The position numbers and the translations under genes were made by a program. The notes beneath the pieces are model-generated. The model was given only the letters and a program-made list of their open reading frames with translations. It was not told the origin of the DNA and did not search any database. From the IMG/VR virus record IMGVR_UViG_3300034117_000826, positions 1 to 26,035 of that record: 26,035 bases of DNA; one strand, 5' to 3'. Positions 1 to 24,565 of the stretch are shown here, piece by piece (the first letter of the stretch is position 1; each line of letters starts with the position of its first letter). Origin of the DNA: a virus.

Positions 1-736
1 GTATGGGTGGCAGAGGAACCGTTGATGGTGGCTCTGGCATTGTTGGCTCTGGTTGGGGTATATAAATTATTTGAGGTGTCAAAGTAGTCGATACGTTTAC
101 CACAGGCACAGTCGTAGAGGGTGCAATAGTAGAAGTGCTCGTCGTTGTAGTCGTGGATGTTGTTGTGGTGTCCCATGTTGTTGTTGTCTCCTGAATAGTT
201 GTTGTTGTTGGAACACCGTTAGTTGTAAACGCTTCGTCAGGCACAATTGTCCAACCTTGGTTGTCAATGTTCCAAGCAAGCATTGCACAGGTTCCCCCGC
301 CATTTTCGTAATAGAAAAAAGATAAAGGATGAGTGTCTGCACTAATGTCTATCTGTCCAGACTCGTAGGCAGAACAGCCTTGGTCGCCCCAGTAGCCCAA
401 CTCGTTGCCACCAATATCAATAATGCCACCGTCATCTGAAGCCAACCAAAACTCAATGGTGTTATGTTCAGGTATCTCAATAAAGCCTGTCATGTGAACC
501 ATGAACAAGTCGTTTGTGCAATCTAGGTATGGTTCACCGTCGTAGGAACGGTTGATGTTGTTTTCCACTTCACTACCGCAAACGGTATAGATGTCATCTG
601 ACCGTGTGGGAGGTACGGTATCTATTGCGTAATAAGTAGCCTGTAATCCTGCTACGGGTTCAGCGTTGGCTTGCGGCGCAAACAACGCCAAGATTGCCAC
701 TGGCACAAATATCAGCCAACGAGAATAACGCTTCAT
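1..736 (-). CDS. Secreted PA14-like protein with Thr/Pro-rich tail (partial, C-terminus off window)
   Basis: The reading frame stays open to the left edge, so the C-terminus is missing (245 codons visible). The start overlaps the stop of the oxygenase gene as ATGA. Residues 1-25 form a clear Sec signal peptide: Lys/Arg N-terminus, hydrophobic core (WLIFVPVAILALFA) and an ANA signal-peptidase site before EP. Residues about 29-155 read like a PA14 domain: GLQATYY near the start, FMVHMTGFIEIPE, then WLASDDGG with GYWGDQG, and a final FFYYENGGG...LAW strand. PA14 domains are beta-barrels that usually bind carbohydrate. From about residue 170 there is a Thr-rich linker, then a Pro/Glu stretch, as in actinobacterial wall or secreted proteins. 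Inference: an exported or surface-exposed glycan-binding protein. A cleavable signal peptide is unusual for a virion protein. The PA14 call rests on motif pattern only. Confidence 0.72.
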   Translation of the reverse strand, partial: MKRYSRWLIFVPVAILALFAPQANAEPVAGLQATYYAIDTVPPTRSDDIYTVCGSEVENNINRSYDGEPYLDCTNDLFMVHMTGFIEIPEHNTIEFWLASDDGGIIDIGGNELGYWGDQGCSAYESGQIDISADTHPLSFFYYENGGGTCAMLAWNIDNQGWTIVPDEAFTTNGVPTTTTIQETTTTWDTTTTSTTTTTSTSTIAPSTTVPVVNVSTTLTPQIIYIPQPEPTMPEPPSTVPLPPI

Positions 737-1302
737 TCGTCAAGTAAAAAATTGTAATTTATTACCAATCTTCTAGGAAAAATGTTTGGTAATTGTGGTG
801 CATGATAAGTATTTCCATCAAAAACAACTAATGTATTTGCTTTCGGTGTTTGCGAATGGATGACAGTATTGGTTTCATCAAAAAACAATGTGTCTCCATC
901 GCAATCATTTATGTAAAAAATTGCTGTTTTCCATTTTTTTCCATAGTCAACAAAATTAGGTTCATCAATATGGTCGTTTATGGCAACTTGTTTTCCAACA
1001 TTTAATGTCATGTTGATTTTCATTCTTGTAAAAAGAATTGGTTCTTCAAACAATTTTTGAATAGCAAAACAAATGGGCAAAAAATCGTTGTAATAATTTG
1101 AATGTATTTGATTTTCACCATAAAGAATGTGAGTGAATCCATGCGTGGATATATCGTTAATATCCGGAATGTCTGTTTGATTATGGTAGTTTGCGTGAAA
1201 ATACCAAGGAAAATTATCGGAACTAATTAAATCAACAATTTTTGTAAAGTCGGGTTGTTCTAAACAATCTAACTTTTGTGTTAATAATCTATTCTTATCC
1301 AT
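733..1302 (-). CDS. 2-oxoglutarate/Fe(II)-dependent oxygenase (prolyl-4-hydroxylase-like)
   Basis: A 189-aa protein with the iron-binding triad of the 2OG-Fe(II) oxygenase superfamily: HID at 111-113, distal His at 167 (TYHAP), and Arg177/Arg178 (RRLVINYNF) placed to hold 2-oxoglutarate. Family members hydroxylate or demethylate amino acids, nucleic acids or small molecules. The ATG start is preferred to a TTG 21 nt upstream because GAAGG sits 9 nt before the ATG; the start lies inside the end of the preceding gene. It is flanked by adhesin-type and PA14-like genes, so a role in modifying a virion fibre or host surface component is plausible but inferred. Such oxygenases are common in aquatic phages, often near tail fibre genes. 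Substrate unknown. Confidence 0.85.
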   Translation of the reverse strand: MDKNRLLTQKLDCLEQPDFTKIVDLISSDNFPWYFHANYHNQTDIPDINDISTHGFTHILYGENQIHSNYYNDFLPICFAIQKLFEEPILFTRMKINMTLNVGKQVAINDHIDEPNFVDYGKKWKTAIFYINDCDGDTLFFDETNTVIHSQTPKANTLVVFDGNTYHAPQLPNIFPRRLVINYNFLLDE

Positions 1303-1634
1303 GACAACAGGCCTTCGTCCCAACGGGAAAAATAATCTGTTGGTCGAGGAGTTGGCGGTTGCCAGTCAAAATTAGAATCCAAAGTCCAAGAAGGAAATGG
1401 TTGAGCCAATATAAAAATATCGTTTTCCTCATTGTATGTAGAACCAACCAAGCCATATTGTTTTCTAAAATTATTGTTAAAAGATGTTTGTACCCAGACA
1501 CCATCATAACCATGACTAGTCAAAAACTGTTGTCCAATTGGTTCCGAAGCAGGAAACTCTGTGCCCACAACATCGTTATTAATAACGGTTATTGCCGTAA
1601 CAACATTGTTTTCTATTTTTGCAAAATGTGCCAT
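1281..1634 (-). CDS. Conserved aquatic-phage protein of unknown function (MAHFAKIENNVV type)
   Basis: A 117-aa protein beginning MAHFAKIENNVVTAI, with a central NNNFRKQYGLVGSTY segment and a Trp/Pro-rich end (PSWTLDSNFDWQPP). This layout matches from memory a small protein widespread in marine and freshwater phages, usually next to tail fibre or structural genes; its function is unknown. The start overlaps the Gly-rich gene's stop as TAATG and its own end overlaps the oxygenase start, so it is translated as part of the late operon. A tail accessory or fibre-associated role is suggested by position only. Confidence 0.8.
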   Translation of the reverse strand: MAHFAKIENNVVTAITVINNDVVGTEFPASEPIGQQFLTSHGYDGVWVQTSFNNNFRKQYGLVGSTYNEENDIFILAQPFPSWTLDSNFDWQPPTPRPTDYFSRWDEGLLSWIRIDY

Positions 1635-7604: not shown

Positions 7605-7853
7605 ATGAAAGGTGAAGTAGTGATGATGACAAACAACGGTTCTGTCACATCAATTCGTATTGCAACGTCATGGACTGATGACCATGACCCTGTTGTAATT
7701 GATATTCCATTCAAAACACATGACGAAGCATTTTTTTACTTCAATGCTTTGTCAAACTTATTCGAGTTACCAAACACAATTGTTTGGTCAGACGGAATCG
7801 CAATGAGAGAAACCAACAAACGACACACAAGGAGCAGTGATGCCAACATCTAG
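7605..7853 (+). CDS. 82-aa protein, function unknown
   Basis: AGGAG lies 6 nt before the ATG and the gene starts 9 nt after the preceding stop. The protein reads as a compact alpha/beta fold: MKGEVVMMTNNGSVTSIRIA, DPVVIDIPFKTHDEAFFYFN, then LFELPNTIVWSDGI and a basic tail. Its end overlaps the amidoligase start by 14 nt, so translation of the two is coupled. No family recognised. Confidence 0.7.
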   Translation: MKGEVVMMTNNGSVTSIRIATSWTDDHDPVVIDIPFKTHDEAFFYFNALSNLFELPNTIVWSDGIAMRETNKRHTRSSDANI

Positions 7854-8928
7854 TGAAGCTGAAAGATTCAGAGAAGAAGAAAGAGTAGTATGCGCATCAG
7901 ATGATTGTGATGCAACAGGTGAATACAGAAACGACTATTTGCGTGGTCTGTATTGCTTGAATTGCCATGAAGGAATCATGGACAATTACTACTCTTCAGA
8001 TGATGAAGATAATGACAATGATGATGAAGATAGTAGCAATCGTTATATCCATAACTACGGCTACAAACCAAGAGCATCGTTTATGCGTTCGGATGGAACG
8101 CATTCATTGTATGTCTCTAAAATCAAAGCAGGTGAAAGCAGAACAACGCTAACAATGGGCTTTGAGTTAGAAACCGAAAACGCATCAGGCGACCAATCCA
8201 ATTACAACATGGCAAGCCAACTACTCAATCAAGTAAACAGCAGTAAAGAATCAGACATCTACATCAAAGAAGATGGCTCACTATATAACGGATTCGAAAT
8301 CGTATCACATCCAGGCGAGTTGCAATACTTCATGAATCATTTCAAATGGGATGGCATTGAGCAACTTGCACGTGATGGATTCCGAGCATGGACTAAACCT
8401 TCATGTGGGTTGCACATTCACCTTGCTAAGTCTGCATTTGCTGACACTAGCCACAAGTTCAAGTTCATGACCTTTGTGTACAAAAATCGTTTTGAGATGG
8501 TCCAGTTTGCTGGTCGTGAGAGCGACCAATACGCAAGCTACGACATCAAGCGTTTCCTTAACAGTCATCGTGACTGGATAGCGGACAATGGGACATTGGT
8601 TCGTGGTGCAAACATGATGAAGTTTGCCAAGGGCGAAGATGTCAACAATTCACGCAGCATGGCTGTCAATCTTCAACCAGATAAAACTATCGAATTACGA
8701 TTGTTTCGTCCTTCGTTAAAGTCCTCAACAGTCAAAGCATGTCTGCAGTTCTGTGATGCGTTATTCCATTACACAGAAAACATTACTACTCGTGAGATTC
8801 TTCAAGAGAATGCACTCAGATTCAAAGGCTTCCAGTCTTGGGTAGCAAAACAGGGTGATGTGTACAGCCTGCTAAATACACGCATCACAGAAAGAGTCAA
8901 GTTTCAATCAACAGGGGGTTCATACTAA
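7840..8928 (+). CDS. Amidoligase-like enzyme (COOH-NH2 ligase) with N-terminal zinc motif
   Basis: A 362-aa protein with the landmark motifs of the glutamine-synthetase-like amidoligase family (Amidoligase_2): GFELETE at about 107-113, EDGSL near 144, EIVSHP near 153, CGLHIHL at 189-195 and TIELRLFRPSL near 283. The paired acidic residues, the His-x-His and the C-terminal Glu/Arg strand are those expected to bind ATP, metal and the carboxylate. Known relatives are thought to join a carboxyl to an amine to form isopeptide-type bonds. The N-terminus adds C18/C23 and C39/C42, a likely zinc knuckle, then an Asp-rich linker (about 50-67). ATG is preferred to the adjacent upstream GTG because AAGGAG lies 5 nt away. 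Its stop overlaps the amidotransferase start as TAATG. Substrate unknown. Confidence 0.82.
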   Translation: MPTSSEAERFREEERVVCASDDCDATGEYRNDYLRGLYCLNCHEGIMDNYYSSDDEDNDNDDEDSSNRYIHNYGYKPRASFMRSDGTHSLYVSKIKAGESRTTLTMGFELETENASGDQSNYNMASQLLNQVNSSKESDIYIKEDGSLYNGFEIVSHPGELQYFMNHFKWDGIEQLARDGFRAWTKPSCGLHIHLAKSAFADTSHKFKFMTFVYKNRFEMVQFAGRESDQYASYDIKRFLNSHRDWIADNGTLVRGANMMKFAKGEDVNNSRSMAVNLQPDKTIELRLFRPSLKSSTVKACLQFCDALFHYTENITTREILQENALRFKGFQSWVAKQGDVYSLLNTRITERVKFQSTGGSY

Positions 8929-9980
8929 TGTGTCTTTTAACATTCATGCCAGAAGATGTCGTGCCAGACATGGCTCGGTTCAAAGAAGCTGCAATACAAA
9001 ACGGTGACGGTTTCGGATTTGCAATCTTAGAATCTAAAGGCTTTGTCAAAGCTCACTCAATGAACTTCAATGAAATAGCAAACAAGTTCGTTGATGCACG
9101 TGACAAACACAAGGGCCCTGCTATCTTCCACTTCAGGTGGGCTACGCATGGTTCAGAAACTGTTGACAACTGTCATCCGTTCCTGCTTGGTGATGACCCA
9201 ACATCTGTTATGGGTCACAATGGTATTCTCGATGTGCAAATACCCAAAGGTGACAAACGCAGTGACACAAAAGTGTTTGCCGAAGACATCATGCCTGCTA
9301 TCGGTGGCATCACATCACTTGATGACACTGAATATTTCGACAAAATGGAAAAATGGGCTGGTGGCAACAAGTTAGTATTCCTCACCCACCACGATGACGC
9401 AAAATACAATTGGTACATTCTAAATTCACATCTTGGTCACTGGGACCAAGGCATGTGGTGGTCTAATTCTTCATACAAAAAGTATGAAGGTATTACATAC
9501 ACGACAAAAGCAGCAAAAATGTACGACTACAACAACATTGGTGTATGGGAAGAAGATGACTATGGCTACGAGTACAACGGCTACTATGACCGTAGTTTGT
9601 ATCGTTGGGACTACGAACAACGTCGATATGTATCTAATGCCACGGGCAAAGACATGGAAATGTTGTCTGATGCTTACGACGATGAAGCAGACTTACTCAT
9701 AGATGAAGATGAAAACATGCTTGCATCAATCAATAAAAAACTCCTGGTCTTCACTCAAAAAATAGATAACAAAACAAATCTCATTGAATGCTACGCATGT
9801 GGCAACGAAGAGTACAGACCATCAGATGAAATCACAATTGAATGCGCATTCTGCACTGCGTGTCTACATTGTGCTCATTATGGTGGCTGCCAATGTTGGA
9901 CAGACCTAGAAAAGTTCTATACAAATGAAATACACAATGAAACAACATACACAACAAACATAAAGGAGCTGTCAAAATGA
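8928..9980 (+). CDS. YafJ-type class II glutamine amidotransferase with Cys-rich C-terminus
   Basis: A 350-aa Ntn-hydrolase-fold protein. The mature N-terminus would be Cys2, the catalytic nucleophile, exposed by removal of Met1. NGDGFGFA (25-32), FRWATHG (69-75), NCHPF (81-85), GHNGIL (96-101) and SDT (112-114) match the glutamine-binding and oxyanion residues of class II amidotransferases of the YafJ type. Unlike typical YafJ proteins, residues about 200-275 are rich in Asp, Glu, Tyr and Trp. The C-terminus (about 286-326) carries CYACG and a cluster CAFCTACLHC...CQCW, which should bind zinc. Known members hydrolyse glutamine to give ammonia or act on related amides. One-nt coupling to the amidoligase suggests the pair make and break, or feed ammonia into, the same amide bond. 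This role is inferred. Confidence 0.85.
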   Translation: MCLLTFMPEDVVPDMARFKEAAIQNGDGFGFAILESKGFVKAHSMNFNEIANKFVDARDKHKGPAIFHFRWATHGSETVDNCHPFLLGDDPTSVMGHNGILDVQIPKGDKRSDTKVFAEDIMPAIGGITSLDDTEYFDKMEKWAGGNKLVFLTHHDDAKYNWYILNSHLGHWDQGMWWSNSSYKKYEGITYTTKAAKMYDYNNIGVWEEDDYGYEYNGYYDRSLYRWDYEQRRYVSNATGKDMEMLSDAYDDEADLLIDEDENMLASINKKLLVFTQKIDNKTNLIECYACGNEEYRPSDEITIECAFCTACLHCAHYGGCQCWTDLEKFYTNEIHNETTYTTNIKELSK

Positions 9981-10510
9981 CAACTATCAAATTAATCCCA
10001 GGTGAAATTGAGTTCAATGTCAGCATTGACAGTGCGTCAATGCCTTCGTTGTTCAATCAATCGTTAGAGACAACAATCCATGACGAAGTAGAACGTCAAG
10101 TGACCGGACGTATCCCATCAAACACCGAGTTGGTTGGTCAAATTGCAGAATACATGCAAGATGATGCATCGTTCGCTCGTAAAATCAGCAGTTGGGTGTA
10201 CGACACAATCGACACCCGTGATATTGCTCGGATAATGTCAGAAGATTTTGACTTCAGTCAAATCACAGACTACCTTAATATCGACAGTGACACATTCTTT
10301 ACTGATGAACGATTCCTACGAGCAATCACAAACTACCCACGCTTCCGAAGCGTCATAACAAATGCTGTTGGCGAGTTGTATGAATCAAACAGTGTAGAAG
10401 ATTTCATCCAAAGCAAAATTGACAGCATGTCGACAAACATCGCAAACGAAGTTGCCGAGAAAGTCATGGTAATAATTTCAAACAGACTGAACCACAACGC
10501 AGATGTCTAA
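9977..10510 (+). CDS. 177-aa helical companion of the amidoligase/amidotransferase pair, function unknown
   Basis: ATGA overlap joins it to the amidotransferase. It opens with beta-like MTTIKLIPGEIEFNVSID and continues as acidic amphipathic helices (FNQSLETTIHDEVERQV, then DTIDTRDIARIMSEDFDF) up to NEVAEKVMVIISNRLNHNADV. No Cys-rich site, membrane span or catalytic motif stands out. Heptad-like spacing and length suggest an oligomeric scaffold or the protein substrate of the modification system; both are inference. Its end overlaps the WhiB start by 8 nt. Confidence 0.68.
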   Translation: MTTIKLIPGEIEFNVSIDSASMPSLFNQSLETTIHDEVERQVTGRIPSNTELVGQIAEYMQDDASFARKISSWVYDTIDTRDIARIMSEDFDFSQITDYLNIDSDTFFTDERFLRAITNYPRFRSVITNAVGELYESNSVEDFIQSKIDSMSTNIANEVAEKVMVIISNRLNHNADV

Positions 10511-10763
10511 TACAAACTGGATGATTGGTGCAATGTGCTACGGCAAACCAACTGCATGGTGGTTCCCCAAAAAAGGAGACAAAGCAGAGCAAGTCTTCAA
10601 TTTTCGTGTAGCAAAGAAAATCTGTAGCACATGCTCATGCAAGAAAAAGTGCTTAGAATATGGCAAAAACACCAGTTCTTACGGGATGTGGGGCGGTGTC
10701 GTCCTGCAAGGAAGGAATAGAAATGGTACAAAAAATACAACATTGGATATGTCAAGTGTGTAA
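10503..10763 (+). CDS. WhiB-family iron-sulfur transcription factor
   Basis: An 86-aa protein with the WhiB signature: C12, then C41-x2-C44-x5-C50, which bind a [4Fe-4S] cluster, followed by G-M-W-G-G at 61-65 and a basic tail starting QGRNRNG. An FP pair follows the first Cys as in the family, and CLEYG matches the usual CLEYA. Known WhiB proteins bind region 4 of the primary sigma factor and, through the basic tail, DNA. C46 is an extra Cys. Actinophage WhiB proteins are known to act on host gene expression. It lies downstream of the amidoligase operon and upstream of the replication promoter. The start is supported by the ATG overlapping the preceding gene. Confidence 0.9.
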   Translation: MSNTNWMIGAMCYGKPTAWWFPKKGDKAEQVFNFRVAKKICSTCSCKKKCLEYGKNTSSYGMWGGVVLQGRNRNGTKNTTLDMSSV

Positions 10764-13700: not shown

Positions 13701-14734
13701 TGAAAATGTCCGCAGAAGAAATTGCTGCGGGCTGGGAAATGGTGGGGAAGCACAATGCTTCCCCACTTCCCGAAAACCGAATGTATACACCATTAGGTGA
13801 ATCAGTTGACTCGTTCGTCAGATGGGCTCAGTCCCCTCAAGAACGCATCAACCTCGGTATAGCTCGCATAGACGCAGAGATGCGTGGAATTGCACCAGGC
13901 GAAGTCGCCATGGTGCTGGGGTTCGCACACGGTGGCAAAACATTATTACTACTTCACATGCTGCGCAATAACCGCGACAAGCATGTCGCGCTCTTTATCC
14001 CTGACGAACCAAGAGAACTTGTTCTCATCAAACTTACTTGCATCACTCATAACATCGACGCCAGAGTTCTTGAGCAACGAGTCGCACAACACGACCAAGA
14101 AGCAATAGACCTACTAAGACAAACAGCAAACGAAGACTACCCCAACCTCGCAGTCTTTGACCAATCTCTCACCATCTCAGACATGGAACGTGGCTACAAC
14201 GAACTGTGCGATGTATGGAATCAATCACCAGAACTTGTTGTCGTGGACTTCCTAGACCTCATCCAAGCAGGTGAAACTGTACCCGACAAAGCCAACTTCC
14301 TCAAAGGCTTTGGTCGCAAACATGATGTTCCACTTCTTGTGCTACACCAAACTTCAAGACACGCAGGTGCTGATGGTAGAAAACCTACTATGAGTTCAGG
14401 TGCCTTCGGTGGCGAGCAACAAGCAACAGCAATCCTTGGTGTTCGCAGACGCAAGTATGAAATTCAAACAGAAATCAATGAACTCATCGAAAAACTTAAT
14501 CGCAGTAGTTCCGAACGCTTACAAGAGCGTTTGGAGTATCTGCGTTATGAAGCAAAAATTCACGAACATACCGTGACAATCAACTTGCTCAAGAACAAAC
14601 GTCCTGCTGGGCAACTTGTTGATGATGTTGACTTTGAACTCAACGCCATGACAGGTCGCCTACGAGAACTCAACGGTGAACTACCACGACAATACAAGCA
14701 GATGGGACTTGAATATGAGCAACCATATGAATGA
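13700..14734 (+). CDS. DnaB-type replicative helicase (RecA-fold domain)
   Basis: A 344-aa protein. GEVAMVLGFAHGGKT holds the Walker A (74-81), LVVVDFLDLI the Walker B (about 179-188), and LLVLHQTSRHAG gives the sensor strand with Gln/His typical of the DnaB/RecA-like superfamily 4 helicases. The DnaB N-terminal primase-binding domain is missing, as in several phage helicases. The C-terminus is helical and basic (about 245-320). The primase gene begins inside its last codons, so helicase and primase are made together. It should unwind DNA at the fork. Confidence 0.85.
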   Translation: MKMSAEEIAAGWEMVGKHNASPLPENRMYTPLGESVDSFVRWAQSPQERINLGIARIDAEMRGIAPGEVAMVLGFAHGGKTLLLLHMLRNNRDKHVALFIPDEPRELVLIKLTCITHNIDARVLEQRVAQHDQEAIDLLRQTANEDYPNLAVFDQSLTISDMERGYNELCDVWNQSPELVVVDFLDLIQAGETVPDKANFLKGFGRKHDVPLLVLHQTSRHAGADGRKPTMSSGAFGGEQQATAILGVRRRKYEIQTEINELIEKLNRSSSERLQERLEYLRYEAKIHEHTVTINLLKNKRPAGQLVDDVDFELNAMTGRLRELNGELPRQYKQMGLEYEQPYE

Positions 14735-15623
14735 TGCAATAGAAGAGTTCATGGAACTCTTCCAAGGTCGCACAGATGCGTATGGTACTTGGGAAGGTGG
14801 TTCCGTCAAGGAACCAACCAACTACAAATCATTTGCACGTCATCTGTATGATGAAGAACTCATTGGCATCTACCCACTCAAAGATGACAGCACAGTCAGA
14901 TGGGGTTGTTCAGACATCGATGTAGACGAGATTGACTTAGCCAGAAACCTCCAGTTAGCATTACAGTCACAAGGCATACCAGCCTTCATAGAAAAAACAG
15001 TTCGTGGATACCACATCTGGGTGTTCGCTTCAGAGTGGGTTCCTGCACCAATAATGCGTAGAGCCTTTTTGGCTGCGCACGAAGCAATCAATCTAGTTGC
15101 TAAGGAAGTAAACCCAAAACAAGAACAAGCAAAAGATGTAGGTAATTATGTCAGGCTACCGTATCCCGGAGCAATGGCAACACCACCAGCCAATCGCTAC
15201 ATGATTGACGATGCAGACATGCCAATAGAACTCGGCACATTCCTTGCAGAAGCTCTAGACAACAGGGTCACAGCAAACATGCTGCGACCTCTAGCAGAAA
15301 AACACAGACCAAGAGCCAAGGCAACTATGGAGAATCTAGATGTATCAGCATCAGTAGAAGAAGCCTTGCGTCACTGCTCACGGCACATCAAAGCAATCTG
15401 GTACGGTGGACCTCTACCCAACCAAGACAGGTCTAACACGCTTTGCATGCTTGCACATCGAATGTGTGACTATAATGTTCCTATGAATCTTGCCTACATC
15501 GTTCTTGTTGATGCCGACAAACGGTGGGGTAAATTTCATCTGCGTGAAGATTGCGTAGAACAACTCGTCAAAATCATTGAAGACACCTACGGTGAATTCA
15601 CGACAGGAGCATTCAGAGCATGA
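14715..15623 (+). CDS. Archaeo-eukaryotic-type primase (AEP)
   Basis: A 302-aa protein. WGCSDIDVD (63-71) carries the catalytic acidic pair, EKTVRGYHIWVF (93-104) the conserved His-containing strand, and GNYVRLPYPG (near 150) the third motif of the AEP superfamily, as in TOTE-type and phage primases. It would make primers, and some members also polymerise DNA. The C-terminal region (about 200-302, with HRMCDYNVPMN) looks like a PriCT-style helical domain. The start has GGGA 7 nt upstream; ATG at 14727 is an alternative. No separate DNA polymerase lies in this window. Its end couples to RusA as ATGA. Confidence 0.8.
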   Translation: MSNHMNDAIEEFMELFQGRTDAYGTWEGGSVKEPTNYKSFARHLYDEELIGIYPLKDDSTVRWGCSDIDVDEIDLARNLQLALQSQGIPAFIEKTVRGYHIWVFASEWVPAPIMRRAFLAAHEAINLVAKEVNPKQEQAKDVGNYVRLPYPGAMATPPANRYMIDDADMPIELGTFLAEALDNRVTANMLRPLAEKHRPRAKATMENLDVSASVEEALRHCSRHIKAIWYGGPLPNQDRSNTLCMLAHRMCDYNVPMNLAYIVLVDADKRWGKFHLREDCVEQLVKIIEDTYGEFTTGAFRA

Positions 15624-15982: not shown

Positions 15983-16422
15983 AAGACAATCGTTGGGACA
16001 TTCCAGCAACGCAACAATACAACTTCAAAAATGATTTGCAATTCGGTAAAAAGGGTGAGCAGATAACCAAAGACTTCCTCACCGCAATATCCACAGGTTC
16101 CTTTGAAGTAAAAACTGACCGTTATCGTAATGGTCGGATGGTTGTGGAAACACAACAGAACCCACGAAACACCGGATGGAAACCATCGGGTGTAGAAGTA
16201 ACCCTCGCAGACTGGTGGGTTTACGTATATGCCCTAGACGGAAGCCTTGTAGTTATTAAGGTGGAACGATTAAAGAGGTATATACAGACATTATCAGACA
16301 AACGTCTAAAAAACTTTGCCCCAATGTCAAACAATCCAACTAAAGGGTTTCTACTACTACCAGAAGAAGTGATGGACATGATAACAAATCCTCTATACGA
16401 TACTCCAGGTGCCGAGCAATAA
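15979..16422 (+). CDS. PD-(D/E)XK-like endonuclease
   Basis: A 147-aa protein. FGKKGEQITKDFL gives the N-terminal helix with Glu, SFEVKTDRYRNGRMVVETQ supplies an ExK strand and a second Glu-Thr-Gln strand, followed by WWVYVYALDG and LKRYIQ. This order fits a small PD-(D/E)XK nuclease of the kind often next to RusA in phage genomes. Whether it nicks branched DNA or protects or degrades host DNA cannot be told. Metal-binding residues seem intact, but the assignment is from pattern only. Confidence 0.68.
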   Translation: MKDNRWDIPATQQYNFKNDLQFGKKGEQITKDFLTAISTGSFEVKTDRYRNGRMVVETQQNPRNTGWKPSGVEVTLADWWVYVYALDGSLVVIKVERLKRYIQTLSDKRLKNFAPMSNNPTKGFLLLPEEVMDMITNPLYDTPGAEQ

Positions 16423-16798
16423 GGAAGTTCCCCTTACTCCATTTCACGAAGTAACTATCCGTGGACCTAGGAGGCCCGAAACGCCGATGGAGGCGTTGAT
16501 GCAGGCTGCCCCAGGTGAAGACGTCAGAGAGTCTGTAGTAGAGTTGCAACCCTTCAGAGAAGCGGTTGCTAGTTGTATTGAAAAGCTCAATGAACAAGAA
16601 CGCTTTATTATTGATGCAGTCAATACAGAAATGATTTCGTTAGAAGAACTAGGTGAAAGATTGGGGGTAACTAAAACTCATGCTTGGAGATTAAGGAACT
16701 CCGCAATGGATAGCCTCAGAAAAATTATGTTACAGGACCCCACGGTACTAGAAAGATTGAGAAGCAATGATGAGACGACAGATTACGGTGGGATTTGA
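16409..16798 (+). CDS. Stand-alone sigma-70 region 4-like protein
   Basis: A 129-aa protein. Residues about 49-107 (FREAVASCIEKLNEQERFII, then LEELGERLGVTKTHAWRLRN) match the region 4 helix-turn-helix of sigma-70, which reads the -35 box and contacts RNA polymerase beta-flap and activators. Region 2 is absent. The frame opens at GTG, overlapping the previous stop by 14 nt; an AGGAGG at about 16468 is 12 nt before an in-frame ATG at residue 27, so a shorter form is possible. The N-terminal 45 residues are Pro/Glu-rich and disordered. It may redirect RNA polymerase or dock with the phage WhiB. Confidence 0.75.
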   Translation: MPSNKEVPLTPFHEVTIRGPRRPETPMEALMQAAPGEDVRESVVELQPFREAVASCIEKLNEQERFIIDAVNTEMISLEELGERLGVTKTHAWRLRNSAMDSLRKIMLQDPTVLERLRSNDETTDYGGI

Positions 16799-17605: not shown

Positions 17606-17996
17606 GGGCTCCGTGAATTGTTTCCTTCTTGTAGTTTGACCAAGCGTCTCTATCGCACATCCATGCACGACCGTGTGGTGCTGGGAAATAATCAAACAAT
17701 GCTTCTAGTCCAAGCAGGTCTGCATTGTCAACAAGTAACTTACACATGCGTACAGCCTCGCGGCGTCCATTGGGGACGCCCTTACCTTTGCCCATGTTGC
17801 GGTAAGAAAAATCTACAGCCCTGCCTGTTGCATGAACACTCAGGGATTCTTTTCCACGCATAGTGCGAACACCAAAATCGCCGTTGTTCCAGAAAGCACC
17901 GTTACCAAGTTTAATTACTTCTTCAATAAACACTTTCATTCCTGGGCGCAAGCCTTTGGCTGCGCCATCTTTGTTGCCTGTGTATTGCCGTTTCAT
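17475..17996 (-). CDS. Endolysin, peptidase M15-like (D,D-carboxypeptidase fold)
   Basis: A 173-aa protein. SLSVHATGRAVDFSY holds H55 and D62, and DWLHAEV holds H137: the three zinc ligands of the M15/VanY-type peptidases that cut peptide cross-links. A central block (MCKLLVDNADLLGLEALFDY) matches the phage branch of the family. The C-terminus is Pro/Lys/Glu-rich. The start overlaps the giant gene's stop as TAATG, so it is last in the late operon and suited to lysis timing. A cell-wall-binding domain is not obvious. Confidence 0.82.
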   Translation of the reverse strand: MKRQYTGNKDGAAKGLRPGMKVFIEEVIKLGNGAFWNNGDFGVRTMRGKESLSVHATGRAVDFSYRNMGKGKGVPNGRREAVRMCKLLVDNADLLGLEALFDYFPAPHGRAWMCDRDAWSNYKKETIHGAPKGDWLHAEVSPEMADSAEKMRKAFAQLVIPAPVLQEEKPKPV

Positions 17997-20900
17997 TATT
18001 TCTCCTTAGTTTGATATGTACGAACTGGTGAACCAACAAAAGACAACCAAGCATTCTTAGCAGCATCTCCCTCGCTACCAATCAACCTGTCGCCCATCTG
18101 TACGGGTGGGACAAATCCCTTCAATATATGAATAAGTCGTTCCTGTGGGTTATCCAAAGGATTACCAGTAAACACTGACCTACCCAAGAACTCCTCCAAA
18201 GGAATCTTCAACAAGGGATTCAGGTTGTTGGTATAACGGATGGGGTCAAAAAGTTCGCCCAACTGTTGTGGCGTCCTGGTAAAACCTAAGTCTGGAGCAA
18301 GATAAAGATTGTCACCAAATGGCAATTTGATACCACCAATCTCTCGGACAAATGGGGATGGGTACTCAGATGTCTCGTAATCAGGGTCACGCATGTTTCT
18401 CATAATCGAGCGATAAATCTGATATGGCTTAGGATTCAACCATTGGTTCTGCAATTCAAATATCAAGTTGCGTGACGTCCAAAGCCAAAACGGAACAATC
18501 TGTCGCATGACCGCATCTACTTCACTGAGGTCTTCATAATCATAAAACGCACGTTTCGTTCTGGCTTGTGCCATACCAACATCCATTCCGCTTTTAGCAG
18601 AATCAAATCCCAAAACAAATCGGCTATAGTTGTCAGACTCTTGACCCCACTTGGCATTGAATCGCACAAGCTTGTTGTCCCACAAACGTGAACCACCAAC
18701 AGCATCCTTAAAGTCTTCAGTAAAGATTCCACCACCTGAACCAAACATAGACTTTCGTGCAATGCGTAGCACTTCACGAAGTTCAGCTGGCTTACTCAAA
18801 ACCCAATCCTCATACTGCATTCCAGCCCTGGAAGCCTTCATCCAATCGATGTACAAGGGGGTGGCTTCCATCATGTTGCCAAACTCAGCACCCATGAACG
18901 CAAGTTTCACAGCGTTAGCCAATCCGTTACGCACATGAAAACCAGGAGTCATGGTTGCATAAGCCTTAAAGAACTTCGTGTAACTACCTACGTACTTCTG
19001 CATCTCACGAAGATAGGCAGGGTCATCAAAACGCTTTGCTTGATTCCATAATTCAACAAACTCTGGTGAGCCGGCAAGACCAGGATAAATACCATAATCA
19101 CCTTTGACACCCTCGGCGCCGTAAATGCCCCTACTCAAATACTGCCAACCTTCTTCAAGGTCAGGAAAAAACTTACGAACATTACTGGTTGGAAACTGCC
19201 CAACTTGTTGCCCAGCAGCATTAGCAACACGACCGGACTTCTCAATAGTCAAAATAGAATTCTGCAATCCCGCAATCAAACGTTGTTCAATTTCGGTAGA
19301 TTCAAGAACAGCAGCAGCAGCTTTAAACTCCACTTCCAATTGCACTTGACGCACCGCAATGGCTTCCAAATCCTTAAACCCTTTACCACGAGTACCTATA
19401 GTACGAAGCATTTCAAGACCTTCTTCAAGGGTATTAAAACCTTCACTGTAAGAACGAGCAGAAGCAGAAGTGCCTTTGGCACGAGTACGAACTTCAGTGC
19501 GACCTGCAACATCCGGCCTAGATTCATTGTAATACTTACCGTCAATCTTGCTTCTAACACGAGAAGTCTTATTAACACGAACTCCAGGTTTAAAAGCAAC
19601 ACCAACCTCAGTACGAGCAATCATATCCTGTACTTCACGAACACGGTCTTCAAGTCTCTTAATGGTAACAGGGTCGTAAGGTTGCACCAAACCTTTAACA
19701 GAATCAAATTGTGTTTGCAAATCAACAACAAGTTTCTGAGCCTCGATATTCGCAGAACGTGCAGCAGTACGAGCCTTCTTGGTTGACGCATTCGATGCGT
19801 CAACAGTAGTAGATATAGATTCCAAATCAGATTGCAAACGAGCAATCGCCTCTTCGCTAGCAGTCATGGGTCTTGGGGGTGCGTCAACAGTTAAAGATTC
19901 AGGAAGCCGTGGAGCAAGACCAAGTAAGTCAGGAGAATCCACAGTCTCAATAACACCACCAAAAGTATTAGCTTGCTCACTAGTAAAACCATACTCAGAT
20001 GTAGAACGGGCCCACTGTTCGTCACCGTACTCAACAGTTTTCAACCATCGAACAGCAGAAGTTTCATCACCAGGCCTCTGATATATAGCAAAGTAACCAA
20101 GTGCTTTTCTATTATCCTTCGTAGCCTTTTCGTCACCCTGAACAAATGTTGCCTTCATATCATCAGAAGTAATAGGACGCCAACGAACCTCAACCCATTT
20201 GTCAGTAGGACTTAACTGTTGTGCACGAGCATTTCTCGCCGGCAATTTCATGAGACTCATGTCCTCTTTACGAAGATACAAACGACCAGAGGCAGTACCA
20301 TCGTCATATCGACGATAAGTACCAACATTGGAAGGTCGCACATCAGCTTCCATAACAACCTGGTTGGTTTTAGAATCAATAACATTCTTACCAAGAGAAT
20401 CCTTCTTGGGCTTCATCCTAAGTTCGATAGACACAGGCAAACCATTAGAAGAAGCAGCCTTGCGCTGAATACCAAGAGCATCTTCACGAACCTTAATCAT
20501 CTGTCTAATACCATCAGACTTAATCTCAATAGTCTCGACGTCCATACTGCGCATCTGCTTGAGAGTCTCAATCTCATGCAACAACTGTTCGCGCGACTTT
20601 TGCTCAAAAGGAGTGTGAACAATTACATTGTCCACGTCATCTGCAAAACGCTTAGAGTTAGCCAAATCCACTTGAAACTTGTAACTAACGGCATCATCGG
20701 GATTAGTACCAGTAAACTCATATCCAAGCCTGGCCCTGAGTTTATCTAAACTCCTAAAATCAGCAGGACCTTCAGGACCCACACTAACAACATCATTAAT
20801 GGCAGCATCGACCTCAGAACCAAAACTTCTACGTTCAGTATCAATCGAAGCAAGCAGTTCCTTTGAACTATCCTTCTTTAATTCCAAACGAGCAATAGAC

Positions 20901-23900
20901 AAATTAGACAATGCGTCATCAAGAACAGTAGGTGTGTAAACAGCATCAGCAACACCTTGTGCAACCTCGGTAGTCAAGTTGGCTTGCTCTGCTTTCAAGG
21001 CGTCAATATTGCCAGCAATAACTTTCTGTGCATCAACAATCTGAACTGGTGTTGCATCTTTTACAGCATTACCAAGAACGATTGCACTCAATCGTTCTTG
21101 ACTCTTAAGAACGGCATTGTCATCAGAACTCTTCCAAAACTTTTCTATAATACTGCGACGAGCTTTTGCAACATCCAAGTTGGCAATCAAAACACCGGCA
21201 GAACCATCCTGTTGCCTAATGTAATCAACAAAATATTGCAAAGAACGTTCATGAGATATACTATCCGCACCTTCCGCAAGGACAGCAGCAGGATTAGTAA
21301 TACGCAAAACTGCTTCGGTGTTTGCCCAATCGGTGATAGAAGTCGCATACTTGCCTGTAGTCTCGTGTTGCACAAAAAGCTTTGACCAAAACTTTGCAGT
21401 AGGGATAGGAAGTGGAATATCACCACCCATAGCCTGAGCAGCCTCCAACATAGGAGGAGCAACACGACCATCAAGAGTCCAGTCAACCGCATGACCATTG
21501 ATTTCAGAAAGTGTCATAAAAGAATTACTACGATTGTAAACAGACTTAGCCAAAATGTATTTTTCAGACTTAACAAGAGCATCAAGTGCAACCTGAGCAT
21601 CAGCAACAGAGTTAGCAACCCTCACACCAGCGGACTTAGTAACCGGACGGACACGAAGAGTCTCATCCAAACGAGCCGCAAGGTCATCAGAAATCTTCTG
21701 CAAGTCAGCAATCTCCATTTGAACACGAACAGAATCATCGACGTACTTACCAAAATCACGACCACGAGAAATAAGAGCAGTGTTCTTCTTAAAAATATCC
21801 TGAGTAATAGAATCACCCAAGTCAACACCATAGTAGGCAAACACTTCCCTCAAGTGAGCAATCTCAATTGATGTCCTCTGTTGTGCAACCAAAACACGAA
21901 CCTTCAAAAGTGACTCTGTGTAATCAGAAGAACCAGTGATACTATTCTTAACCAAATCAAGAGCAATCTGGTAGTCGTCAGAAAGCTTGGCAGCGCGAGC
22001 AGCCAAGCGAGGGGAAACAGAAGCGCGAGATGCAGCAGCCTTAGAAGCCTTCTCTAAAGCTGCAACCTCTGCTGGAGTAGGAACACGCCGTGGAGAACGC
22101 TTAGCAACAGCAATTGCATCATTAAGTATAGCGTCAATCTTGTTAGCCATACCAGGAAATCGTTCCTTCAAATGCACACGAAGAGACTCAACAACAGGAG
22201 AAAGAGCAGCAATGTCACGAGAACCAGTCTCACTCAAACGAGCTACAACACTGTCAATTTGTTCCAAACTATGCACAGCCTTAGTTGGAACAACAGGTTG
22301 CCCAACACCAAGCTTCCTAACAACATTAACTACTTCTCCATAAAGGCTGTCTTTAGACAAAGCAGAATAATTAGCGAGCGGAGAAAGATATGCAGAAACA
22401 TCCATAAGTTCTTTCTGCGAACGTGCATGAAAAGCAGCATCTTCCGTATACTTCTCAAAGTCAGACAAGAACTCAGTAACAGCGTAATTGCGAGCAGATG
22501 ATGGTTCGGCGTTACGAAGAGCAAGACCTTTTTCAGAAAGGTTTTCAAAACGCTTCTGCAACTTAGCGGACTCAACAGCATGTCTGGCGTAAACACCAAA
22601 ACCATCAGTGTTAGGCAACATACTAGCAACAACACCATCAGCACGAACCATGTCAGCATGCTTAACAGCAGCATCGGAAATAGCAGTGTTCAAATAACCC
22701 AACAACTCAGCAACGTCTGCTTCGTTAACAGCAGGATTCTTCAATGCCATCAAGGCAGCATCCATGCTGCCATACTTTATTTCAAGTTGTGCTTTCAACA
22801 CATCAAGACTATCTCGCAGACCAGAATGCAAATTCTGCACAGCCTTCAAAACACCATCAAATGCGTAAGCTGAATTCTTATGCATTTGCGCTAAATACTC
22901 GGGAGCAATACCAAAATAACCATCAACAAGTTTCACAAACTCAGGGGTCTTCTTAAACTCGTTCATCATCGCTACGTTTGACATCATGTTCGCATGACCC
23001 CGAATGTAAGCAGGAACAATATTTTTCATATCAGTATCAAAAGCATCAAAAGGCTTACGACCATTAGCAACAAGCCAGTCATTGACAATCTTATTAAGAT
23101 TGTCAATAGTCAAATCTTCCTGTGTAAGTTTTTTACCAAAAAATGGAGAATCAACTCTCAAACCCCGTTGCCGAAAGTTGCCAACAATATGCATTGCACT
23201 ACCATCATCAGGAAGTAAACCAGCCATAGCGGGAGTAGAACGAACCTCATCCATCAACTCAACAAACTGCTCGGTAGAGTTATGGGGAAGATAACCCTTC
23301 TGGTATCCAATAACATGTTCAGGGACAACACTCTGCCAGCCTTCATCAGTGACACGGTGAAGGTCTTCCATAACAACACGAAAACGCTGAGCCAAGTCAA
23401 GATGCTCGGCAGAAATACCAAGCTTCGCAGCCTGGTCAATCATGGGCTGACCACTTTCAACATTATCAAGCAGTTGTCGCACAGGATTATTCTCTGGCTT
23501 CATAACCTCTTCGCGCAAAGAACCAAAACGCTGAACGGCATTAAAGTCTGCTTCTGAATAACCAATACGACGAATATCATCTGCATTTAAAATCACACGA
23601 CCAAGCTGTGCTTCACTATCAGTCAAAGAACCGTTAGCCAAAGCAACACGATACTTCTTGATTGTGCCTTCACCAAAATATTCGATAGCTCCAACACCAC
23701 GAGGTGTTATCGCCTGATGCAATGGTTTAATACCACTAGTGTTAACCAAACCAAGACGAGTCTTAGTGATACCACGCTCAAGGAACTTACCAACCACATC
23801 AGTACCAGGAACCTTGACACGACTGCCAAAATAGTAAACACCAGGACCCCTAATACCAAATTCTCTTGCCATGACATCCGGAAGAGCCTGTTTGCCTTGC

Positions 23901-24565
23901 GCAGCAATGTTCTTATAAGCAGATGCTATTTCTTCTTTAGAAAAATTAGCAAGACCACTCTTGGTCATCCACTCCATACGTTGTTGGGTAAAAGAAGCGA
24001 GCTTCTCTCTACCCTCACGACCAATCACACTTTTGCCAATAAGGCTTCGAGTCTTGACAAGCTCACCTGCGTTATTCAACATAGTCGCCTTGGCTGCAAC
24101 TGTGCCACCCAACGTAGCCCACGTCAAAGGGTCTAATGCCACATCACCAACCAGACCAACAATGCGTCCAGCCCAACCCTTCATCGGGAATGCTTTGCCA
24201 AAACCATAACTAAAGTCTTTTGTCTGGTCTGCAAAATCCCCAAACGAACCCTTCGTGTTGGGGTCAGTATCCAAAACATCAACAATCTCACGGATACCAG
24301 AAATAACAGCACGACGTGGTGTGTCGAGAATTTGCAAAGGCATCAAAAGATTCTTCAAAGCAGTTGCACCAACACCAGGCTCTGGGGGTGTGTACAAATC
24401 GTCAGGGTTGTACGGAGTAGAATCAAGAGCATTAAGTATGTACTTGGTTCTTGATGTTGGAGTCATAACTGACTCCAACGGAGGCAAAGGTGTTCGGTTA
24501 CGAACAACCGGAACTGCCCCCAACTTCTCAGTTAAACTAAACGGGGGTTTTGGGTTACTTGCCAT
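17996..24565 (-). CDS. 2189-aa giant virion-associated protein
   Basis: By far the largest gene here. The N-terminal 160 residues include GRIVGLVGDVALDPLTWATL, resembling the 'GDxxxDPxTY' segment of large ejected phage proteins. Residues about 850-1650 are mostly long helices with coiled-coil character (AIARLQSDLESISTTVDAS near 1565). The C-terminus (about 1871 onward) has TPGFHVRNGLANAVKLAF, RAFYDYEDLSEVDAV and PFWLWTSRNLIFELQ (near 2022), a motif set seen in large phage and prophage proteins that travel with the particle. No protease, transglycosylase or NTPase site is clear. Position after internal-type proteins and before the lysin suggests an internal or ejected virion protein. Alternatives: polyvalent-like protein or very large minor structural protein. 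Confidence 0.72.
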   Translation of the reverse strand: MASNPKPPFSLTEKLGAVPVVRNRTPLPPLESVMTPTSRTKYILNALDSTPYNPDDLYTPPEPGVGATALKNLLMPLQILDTPRRAVISGIREIVDVLDTDPNTKGSFGDFADQTKDFSYGFGKAFPMKGWAGRIVGLVGDVALDPLTWATLGGTVAAKATMLNNAGELVKTRSLIGKSVIGREGREKLASFTQQRMEWMTKSGLANFSKEEIASAYKNIAAQGKQALPDVMAREFGIRGPGVYYFGSRVKVPGTDVVGKFLERGITKTRLGLVNTSGIKPLHQAITPRGVGAIEYFGEGTIKKYRVALANGSLTDSEAQLGRVILNADDIRRIGYSEADFNAVQRFGSLREEVMKPENNPVRQLLDNVESGQPMIDQAAKLGISAEHLDLAQRFRVVMEDLHRVTDEGWQSVVPEHVIGYQKGYLPHNSTEQFVELMDEVRSTPAMAGLLPDDGSAMHIVGNFRQRGLRVDSPFFGKKLTQEDLTIDNLNKIVNDWLVANGRKPFDAFDTDMKNIVPAYIRGHANMMSNVAMMNEFKKTPEFVKLVDGYFGIAPEYLAQMHKNSAYAFDGVLKAVQNLHSGLRDSLDVLKAQLEIKYGSMDAALMALKNPAVNEADVAELLGYLNTAISDAAVKHADMVRADGVVASMLPNTDGFGVYARHAVESAKLQKRFENLSEKGLALRNAEPSSARNYAVTEFLSDFEKYTEDAAFHARSQKELMDVSAYLSPLANYSALSKDSLYGEVVNVVRKLGVGQPVVPTKAVHSLEQIDSVVARLSETGSRDIAALSPVVESLRVHLKERFPGMANKIDAILNDAIAVAKRSPRRVPTPAEVAALEKASKAAASRASVSPRLAARAAKLSDDYQIALDLVKNSITGSSDYTESLLKVRVLVAQQRTSIEIAHLREVFAYYGVDLGDSITQDIFKKNTALISRGRDFGKYVDDSVRVQMEIADLQKISDDLAARLDETLRVRPVTKSAGVRVANSVADAQVALDALVKSEKYILAKSVYNRSNSFMTLSEINGHAVDWTLDGRVAPPMLEAAQAMGGDIPLPIPTAKFWSKLFVQHETTGKYATSITDWANTEAVLRITNPAAVLAEGADSISHERSLQYFVDYIRQQDGSAGVLIANLDVAKARRSIIEKFWKSSDDNAVLKSQERLSAIVLGNAVKDATPVQIVDAQKVIAGNIDALKAEQANLTTEVAQGVADAVYTPTVLDDALSNLSIARLELKKDSSKELLASIDTERRSFGSEVDAAINDVVSVGPEGPADFRSLDKLRARLGYEFTGTNPDDAVSYKFQVDLANSKRFADDVDNVIVHTPFEQKSREQLLHEIETLKQMRSMDVETIEIKSDGIRQMIKVREDALGIQRKAASSNGLPVSIELRMKPKKDSLGKNVIDSKTNQVVMEADVRPSNVGTYRRYDDGTASGRLYLRKEDMSLMKLPARNARAQQLSPTDKWVEVRWRPITSDDMKATFVQGDEKATKDNRKALGYFAIYQRPGDETSAVRWLKTVEYGDEQWARSTSEYGFTSEQANTFGGVIETVDSPDLLGLAPRLPESLTVDAPPRPMTASEEAIARLQSDLESISTTVDASNASTKKARTAARSANIEAQKLVVDLQTQFDSVKGLVQPYDPVTIKRLEDRVREVQDMIARTEVGVAFKPGVRVNKTSRVRSKIDGKYYNESRPDVAGRTEVRTRAKGTSASARSYSEGFNTLEEGLEMLRTIGTRGKGFKDLEAIAVRQVQLEVEFKAAAAVLESTEIEQRLIAGLQNSILTIEKSGRVANAAGQQVGQFPTSNVRKFFPDLEEGWQYLSRGIYGAEGVKGDYGIYPGLAGSPEFVELWNQAKRFDDPAYLREMQKYVGSYTKFFKAYATMTPGFHVRNGLANAVKLAFMGAEFGNMMEATPLYIDWMKASRAGMQYEDWVLSKPAELREVLRIARKSMFGSGGGIFTEDFKDAVGGSRLWDNKLVRFNAKWGQESDNYSRFVLGFDSAKSGMDVGMAQARTKRAFYDYEDLSEVDAVMRQIVPFWLWTSRNLIFELQNQWLNPKPYQIYRSIMRNMRDPDYETSEYPSPFVREIGGIKLPFGDNLYLAPDLGFTRTPQQLGELFDPIRYTNNLNPLLKIPLEEFLGRSVFTGNPLDNPQERLIHILKGFVPPVQMGDRLIGSEGDAAKNAWLSFVGSPVRTYQTKEK

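Follow-up and report, generated by a model that had tools for sequence, protein, structure and literature searches.

A conserved amidoligase-amidotransferase gene pair of actinophages and mobile elements that probably acts as one amide-forming machine

Gene layout of the locus

The window, which is the whole stretch of 26,035 nucleotides analysed here, carries three translationally coupled genes on its + strand between positions 7840 and 10510. The first (7840..8928, + strand) encodes a 362-residue amidoligase of the Amidoligase_2 type, here called AL, which was identified by Pfam family PF12224, by an AF2 model searched with Foldseek and by its invariant residues. The second (8928..9980, + strand) encodes a 350-residue class II glutamine amidotransferase, GAT, recognised by GATase_4, phrog_25883 and its similarity to GlmS. 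The third (9977..10510, + strand) encodes P3, an all-helical accessory protein of 177 residues, described from its homologues and an AF2 model. The start of AL was placed at ATG 7840 rather than at the listed GTG 7837, because its homologues begin with MP. The AL/GAT junction is TAATG and the GAT/P3 junction is ATGA.

The ORF coordinates confirm the three-gene coupled operon described in an earlier note on this DNA, which, however, overlooked a fourth gene. This gene (10503..10763, + strand) overlaps P3 by 8 bases and encodes a WhiB-like transcription factor (PF02467, E=9.9e-10; phrog_472, E=1e-14). WhiB lies 3' of AL-GAT in most viral loci with contigs extending that far. It marks the virus as an actinophage, the hosts being actinobacteria, probably of fresh water. 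A replication module (exonuclease, DnaB, primase) adjoins the AL-GAT-P3 genes. A function in anti-phage defence was rejected, with no match in PADLOC.

Sequence and fold of the three proteins

AL matches PF12224 with 29.3 bits against a curated cut-off of 22 (E=9.8e-7) and phrog_2443, "amidoligase enzyme", with E=5.5e-7. The family assignment made earlier from amidoligase landmarks is thus borne out by the profile, and the fold agrees. The AF2 model of AL has a pLDDT of 81.6 and a pTM of 0.76; three rows from annotated records were left out of the structure alignment. Foldseek matched the model to YbdK and GCL at E 3e-6, followed by Dop, GMAS, PafA and glutamine synthetase (GS), and every match down to E ~1e-2 is a GS-superfamily ligase or Dop, with TM-scores of only ~0.3-0.4. 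As modelled, AL has a fold of the glutamine-synthetase/YbdK/GCL/PafA-Dop type. Comparison of solved structures with the AL profile gave no sequence match.

In an alignment of 24 relatives, including those from Marvin, MEP401 and a C. difficile phage, the residues E109/E111, D145/S147, E153, H192/H194 and E285/R287 are invariant. The conserved acidic and histidine residues presumably correspond to the metal- and ATP-binding residues of GS. Invariant residues were taken from alignments instead of a strict regular-expression motif count, which runs low. A cluster of cysteines occupies approximately residues 18-43 at the N-terminus, of which C18, C23 and C39 are nearly invariant; it appears zinc-ribbon-like and may bind zinc.

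GAT scores 21.9 bits against GATase_4, just below the cut-off of 23 (E=9.5e-5), and matches phrog_25883 with E=2.7e-36 as well as glmS models. Its nearest solved relative is the GAT domain of GlmS, with which the RWATHG and HNG motifs align. M1-C2 is invariant in 21 aligned sequences, and the alignment also shows R70, T73, H74, G75, H97-N98-G99, D113 and C309 to be invariant. These residues cover the glutamine-binding set, namely the substrate Arg/Thr-His-Gly, the oxyanion Asn-Gly and the amino-group Asp, in agreement with the class II motif set reported earlier. W71 matches Trp74 of GlmS, which gates the ammonia channel of that enzyme; several relatives from Nocardia and OM43 have a different residue at this position. 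The C-terminal cysteine cluster of GAT (residues 288-323) contains, in addition to C309, the nearly invariant C288, C291, C306, C312, C315, C321 and C323, and it too may bind zinc. The extra cysteine clusters of both enzymes are real, as the earlier note had claimed, but they are not non-standard, since further members from phages and plasmids have them as well.

P3 was described as helical and unrecognised, and it remains so. Its AF2 model is all helical and weak (pTM 0.45), and no sequence match was found in Pfam, PHROGs, NCBIfam, PADLOC, a PDB profile search or a phage tblastn search. No fold match was found either, which says little given so weak a model. The gene is not absent from related genomes, having homologues in 43 loci; P3 is conserved in one actinophage lineage only and is therefore considered accessory. 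None of its residues is invariant, and Met1, R122 and D176 alone are nearly so. In most loci the codon of the conserved C-terminal Asp falls where P3 and the start codon of the following gene overlap, and for this reason a C-terminal "DV" was rejected as a tagging motif.

Pairing in phages, plasmids and actinomycetes

In 74 of 75 viral AL loci GAT lies next to AL and has the same orientation; the remaining locus is cut by the end of its contig. Both genes occur together in 41 of 43 actinomycete GAT loci, and these include 25 tandem AL-GAT-AL-GAT arrays. The class of AL and the class of GAT co-segregate in all of the tandem loci (25/25), showing that each AL retains its own GAT and that the pair was duplicated as a unit. 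The co-segregation was computed on tandem loci only; dividing the full set of genome pairs into two clusters was uninformative. The distance correlation is 0.87 for AL-GAT, compared with 0.77 for both AL-WhiB and GAT-WhiB. The pair is also found on mycobacterial plasmids and on integrated elements. The sensitivity of PF12224 in actinomycete genomes is too low for the AL subfamily to be counted with it. A related Clostridioides phage possesses AL but no GAT, and pairing is therefore no rule for all Amidoligase_2 proteins. Among related phages the conservation of gene order may in part reflect synteny inertia. The functional linkage of the two enzymes proposed earlier is supported by their near-universal adjacency in unrelated elements, their duplication as a unit, the profiles and the fold.

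The pairing has already been published for phiEco32, LUZ24-like phages, Marvin and the OM43 phages (as cited in PMC10580990 and PMC11318856). The phiEco32/LUZ24-like cassette consists of a COOH-NH2 ligase, an amidoligase, a GAT-II, a RimK-type ATP-grasp protein and a gamma-glutamyl cyclotransferase. As in the window, its amidoligase is followed by a class II GAT near replication genes, this GAT carries C-terminal CxxC clusters, and both enzymes are weakly but significantly homologous to those of the window (hhalign E 3e-5 and 5e-5). However, AL of LUZ24 and phiEco32 lacks the N-terminal zinc ribbon of the window protein. The cyclotransferase (PF06094) and the RimK-type ATP-grasp (PF08443) were matched in none of 18 window-lineage records of at most 51 kb, possibly fragments, with the controls working, suggesting that two genes are sufficient. 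The COOH-NH2 ligase (PF14395) was likewise matched in 0/18 records, but its control was also silent everywhere.

In the cluster S mycobacteriophage Marvin, gp105 and gp106 are an adjacent AL and GAT that share 29% and 41% identity with their counterparts in the window and have both cysteine clusters. Neither P3 nor WhiB was recognised beside them, and gp105 has an additional C-terminal region. The adjacent amidoligase and GATase of the OM43 phages MEP401 and MEP402 are described as auxiliary genes (PMC10580990); their AL has a long N-terminal extension, and their GAT has no C-terminal cysteine cluster. The pairing is thus known from other phages, and the zinc-ribbon-like ends together with the extra helical protein make the window locus a distinct variant.

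Possible function of the pair

AL and GAT probably act together as a single amide-forming machine. Our preferred reading, to which we assign a probability of about 0.42, is that AL and GAT form a two-subunit, ATP- and glutamine-dependent, zinc-ribbon-bearing amide synthetase, in which GAT passes ammonia to AL. Both would be produced early in infection as subunits of one enzyme. The start Met of GAT would be removed, after which Cys2 would split the gamma-amide of glutamine by hydrolysis. AL would receive the ammonia and, like glutamine synthetase, would activate the target carboxylate with ATP as an acyl phosphate and then amidate it. The zinc ribbons at the N-terminus of AL and the C-terminus of GAT might join the subunits, recognise a macromolecular target, or both. 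P3 would be a lineage-specific helical adaptor or regulator outside the core enzyme, and WhiB would only be co-transcribed with the pair.

The complete motif sets of both enzymes across divergent relatives, the limitation of the AL fold matches to GS-superfamily ligases or Dop, and the closeness of GAT to the ammonia-transferring GlmS all argue for such a synthetase. The strict adjacency, the plasmid pairs, the co-segregation, the correlation of 0.87 and the location beside the replication module count in the same direction. GAT shares with synthetases of the GlmS/AsnB type a class II domain having RWATHG, HNG and the substrate-binding Asp, but it stands alone as a polypeptide and is partnered by a GS-superfamily ligase instead of an isomerase or ATP-pyrophosphatase. 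We know of no GS-superfamily enzyme that works with a separate class II GAT, which counts against the synthetase; if true, a GAT feeding ammonia to a GS-type ligase would be a combination new to us. The low TM-scores and the possible synteny inertia also count against it, as does the use by the best AL fold matches (YbdK, GCL, GMAS, Dop/PafA) of amines other than ammonia, or their reversal of such bonds. Replacement of the Trp74 equivalent in some relatives argues against ammonia transfer.

The main rival, possible though doubtful, is that AL couples the gamma-carboxylate of glutamate to an amine of a metabolite, peptide or protein and that GAT hydrolyses the resulting gamma-glutamyl amide, giving a protected intermediate or a reversible tag. 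In ergothioneine biosynthesis, EgtA is a GS-superfamily gamma-glutamyl ligase and EgtC a free hydrolase with the class II GAT fold. The likeness is a functional analogy only, AL being of the Amidoligase_2 and not the GCS2 type, and no further Egt genes were recognised among the window proteins searched. Among small class II GATs that stand alone, EgtC and DUG3 act as hydrolases of gamma-glutamyl compounds; those of the YafJ type are hydrolases too, and GATase_4, the Pfam family matched by GAT, contains YafJ. This favours the rival and counts against the synthetase. The top fold matches of AL include the gamma-glutamyl ligases YbdK and plant GCL, in addition to GMAS and Dop/PafA. Annotations place a cyclotransferase that cleaves gamma-glutamyl bonds close to the amidoligase in phiEco32 and LUZ24 and also in clostridial prophages (for the latter, PMC11318856), so that gamma-glutamyl-cutting partners recur beside amidoligases. 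However, among solved structures GlmS, rather than EgtC or DUG3, is nearest to GAT, and a hydrolase that undoes its partner's product would need neither strict 1:1 pairing nor co-duplication. Everything observed fits both branches of the earlier suggestion, in which the pair makes or removes an amide by using either ammonia drawn from glutamine or a reversible tag.

As to the substrate of the proposed amide synthetase, a modification of the host envelope, such as amidation of the carboxylates of peptidoglycan stem peptides, which would block superinfection or tune lysis, is rather unlikely. Actinobacterial stem peptides are amidated by AsnB/LtsA and MurT-GatD, and occurrence on plasmids and integrated elements would suit a host-protective trait. 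Such a role was proposed for phage amidoligases, including that of phiEco32 (cited in PMC10580990 and PMC11318856). But no cell-wall enzyme was recognised next to the pair, the hosts include both Gram-negative bacteria (OM43, Pseudomonas) and mycobacteria, and the zinc ribbons point rather to a protein or a nucleic acid as the target.

It is unlikely, too, that the pair is a mobile-element-borne, zinc-ribbon-guided system for amidation or isopeptide tagging of a host protein or nucleic acid. In this phage analogue of pupylation, AL and GAT would add and remove a mark, glutamyl or amide, and lineage-specific adaptors such as P3 would select the target. PafA and Dop are among the GS enzymes that the fold of AL resembles; the only conserved candidate for an acceptor motif in P3 is its C-terminal Asp. 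Modification of nucleic acids or nucleotides (hypermodified phage DNA bases or tRNA) is improbable. The zinc ribbons would then bind nucleic acid, which would suit the arrays of 8-11 CxxC found N-terminal to the ligase core in many Nocardia copies, the replication genes adjoining the pair in phages and the prim-pol neighbouring it in Nocardia elements. However, the window proteins searched included no recognisable base-modification partner, whether a thymidylate or hmU kinase or the product of a deazaguanine gene, and a GS-superfamily ligase acting on DNA is without precedent known to us. Least probable is a role for P3 as the dedicated substrate or Pup-like carrier of the ligase: this small, all-helical protein keeps its place beside GAT where WhiB has moved (L103, L104, L107, L109, L115), but AL-GAT occurs without it in Marvin, OM43 phages, plasmids, Nocardia and many viral loci, and the absence of any conserved acceptor residue and of a fold match leaves the substrate or scaffold role proposed earlier without particular support.

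Amidoligase genes are present in many phages and mobile elements, and no substrate for them was identified in the literature searched. Knowing the target would tell if walls, proteins or nucleic acids are what these phages modify. As a strict two-gene unit that was co-duplicated in actinomycetes and bears zinc-ribbon-like ends, the pair offers a small, testable minimal system of two proteins. A cultured relative exists in Marvin, whose host is genetically tractable. The Marvin records label both gp105 and gp106 "glutamine amidotransferase domain".

Linkage of the amidoligase and amidotransferase genes

The amidoligase gene (AL, positions 7840-8928, + strand) and the class II glutamine amidotransferase gene (GAT, 8928-9980, +) keep the same order in other phages, as the earlier note had proposed to check. 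In a search from AL, GAT lies directly downstream on the same strand in 74 of 75 viral loci, and the one locus lacking it stops at a contig edge. A search from GAT gave 43 loci in bacterial genomes, mostly of Nocardia but also of Amycolatopsis, Saccharopolyspora, Kutzneria and others, and AL is present at 41 of them. Clear members were found in only 3 of 299 genomes sampled from the order of one such host genome, and several bacterial AL-GAT loci are near prim-pol, DUF4192 and partition-like genes. The bacterial loci are thus accessory and probably mobile. Large mycobacterial plasmids also carry the pair (L210:7084-8756; L212:5094-6792), annotated as "amidoligase enzyme" and "glucosamine 6-phosphate synthetase"; the latter name looks like a misannotation. 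In the linear plasmid pGD21-2 the pair is situated near the record end.

Tandem AL-GAT-AL-GAT arrays occur mostly in Nocardia genomes (L129-L139, L142-L152, L158, L161, L162, L165). In the Nocardia set the AL class and GAT class co-segregate perfectly in 25/25 two-pair arrays, although some of these loci are closely related, so that there were fewer than 25 independent events and one ancestral duplication suffices. The two genes were thus duplicated as a unit, every AL keeping its own GAT. One locus (L147) has three pairs, and a conserved, Cys-rich protein lacking a Pfam match often comes after the arrays. Over 50 viral loci, the mirror-tree correlation of AL with GAT (0.87) modestly exceeds that of WhiB with AL or with GAT (0.77 each). 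The two enzymes are more strongly linked than could have been foreseen from the sequence alone.

The enzymes and their proposed reaction

Both family assignments of the earlier note were right. AL scores above the Pfam cut-off for Amidoligase_2; a profile search against solved structures found no match by sequence. AlphaFold2, given 21 relatives, produced a confident model (pLDDT 81.6, pTM 0.76). For this model Foldseek ranks YbdK, plant glutamate-cysteine ligase, Dop, gamma-glutamylmethylamide synthetase, PafA and glutamine synthetases highest. The TM-scores are modest (0.3-0.4); these matches of a predicted structure support placing AL among the carboxylate-amine ligases of the glutamine-synthetase superfamily. 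In AL, 20 columns are invariant in 24 aligned sequences, among them those of mycobacteriophage Marvin, one OM43 phage and one Clostridioides phage; these columns include the acidic, His and Arg residues that such a ligase would be expected to use for metal and ATP. GAT is identified as a class II glutamine amidotransferase by its motifs and by a match to GATase_4 below threshold. It retains Met1-Cys2, Arg70, Thr73-His74-Gly75, Asn98-Gly99 and Asp113, the counterparts of the glutamine-binding set of GlmS, which is its nearest solved relative. With these motifs conserved, both enzymes look catalytically active.

Most weight is given to an amide synthetase with two subunits, where GAT would supply ammonia and AL would amidate a carboxylate, because GAT is GlmS-like, the pairing is strict and two genes are apparently sufficient. 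The chief competing reading is gamma-glutamyl chemistry like that of EgtA/EgtC: AL is closest in fold to gamma-glutamyl ligases, and partners that cleave gamma-glutamyl bonds accompany other phage amidoligases. Both reactions need the same gamma-glutamyl pocket, so the sequence does not separate them. The pair is of value as a clean minimal system, not as a new kind.

In seven viral loci (L011:3062-3937, L012:3118-3954, L101:3651-4364; also L013, L015, L019, L031) another amidoligase paralogue, shorter and without the putative zinc ribbon, precedes the pair by about 0.3-0.6 kb; the majority of its ligase motifs are apparently intact. A Clostridioides phage amidoligase (L003:3677-4789) has neither zinc ribbon nor GAT neighbour and adjoins an RlaP-type nucleotidyltransferase and a DUF1653 protein.

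Known phage cassettes and the cysteine clusters

That an amidoligase gene adjoins a GAT-II gene has been documented in phiEco32 and LUZ24-like phages (PMC3890496), as the phiEco32 and LUZ24 records confirm, and in OM43 phages (PMC10580990). The latter paper also gives the adjacency in Marvin, and relays two proposals, cell-wall modification against superinfection and secondary-metabolite synthesis. Systems of this kind have been described before, though, as far as we found, none with a demonstrated function. In phiEco32 and LUZ24 the pair is accompanied by a COOH-NH2 ligase, an ATP-grasp enzyme and a gamma-glutamyl cyclotransferase. In 18 records of 26-51 kb, from the window lineage or near it, cyclotransferase and RimK gave no match while the controls worked; the COOH-NH2 ligase search gave 0 matches, its control being likewise silent. 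Since cyclotransferase and RimK were not found, the window appears to hold a reduced version of the known cassette, with putative zinc ribbons.

The extra Cys clusters noticed earlier are real and conserved among relatives, as CxxC pairs ahead of the ligase core in AL and as a C-terminal block CxxC...CxxCxxCxxC...CxC in GAT, but they also occur beyond this phage. In Marvin both proteins have them, C-terminal clusters are present in the GATs of LUZ24 and phiEco32, and ahead of the core many Nocardia ALs carry 8-11 overlapping CxxC motifs. The putative zinc ribbons are therefore apparently a trait of the mobile-element branch of the pair.

The third gene and its surroundings

In the window, an IMG/VR virus record of 26,035 bases, AL, GAT and the third gene (P3, 9977-10510, +) lie upstream of replication genes. 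Inspection of the junctions showed the reported TAATG and ATGA overlaps to be exact. A fourth gene, WhiB (10503-10763, +), overlaps P3 by 8 bases, and its presence points to an actinobacterial host.

P3 has no match in Pfam, PHROGs, NCBIfam or PADLOC. It is not confined to this genome, an iterated profile finding homologues in 43 loci, and it keeps its place next to GAT even in loci where WhiB lies elsewhere. P3 was not seen in the AL-GAT contexts of Marvin, the OM43 phages, plasmids and Nocardia, nor in viral loci such as L110-L114, L117, L120-L122, L124 and L126-L127. The GAT-P3 junction is often uncoupled, with gaps up to about 500 bases. No residue is invariant; only Met1, R122 and D176 are nearly so, and D176 mostly falls where P3 overlaps the start codon of the gene that follows. 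P3, once suggested as substrate or scaffold, is best regarded as an accessory specific to one lineage.

The downstream genes encode, by Pfam and PHROGs, a PD-(D/E)XK exonuclease, a DnaB-like helicase, an AEP-type primase, RusA and a sigma-70 region 4 protein (16409-16798). The primase (14676-15623, +), which RusA adjoins, has the AEP domain of TOTE conflict systems (PF22548, E=4e-18). On the opposite strand, the gene at 733-1323 (-) matches DNA endonuclease V in PHROGs (E=5e-37), a name that may be wrong, and 2OG-Fe(II) oxygenase in Pfam below threshold (E=1.5e-4). Also on that strand, 17996-24565 (-) encodes a protein of 2189 residues that Pfam does not match significantly and that may be a tail or tape-measure protein.
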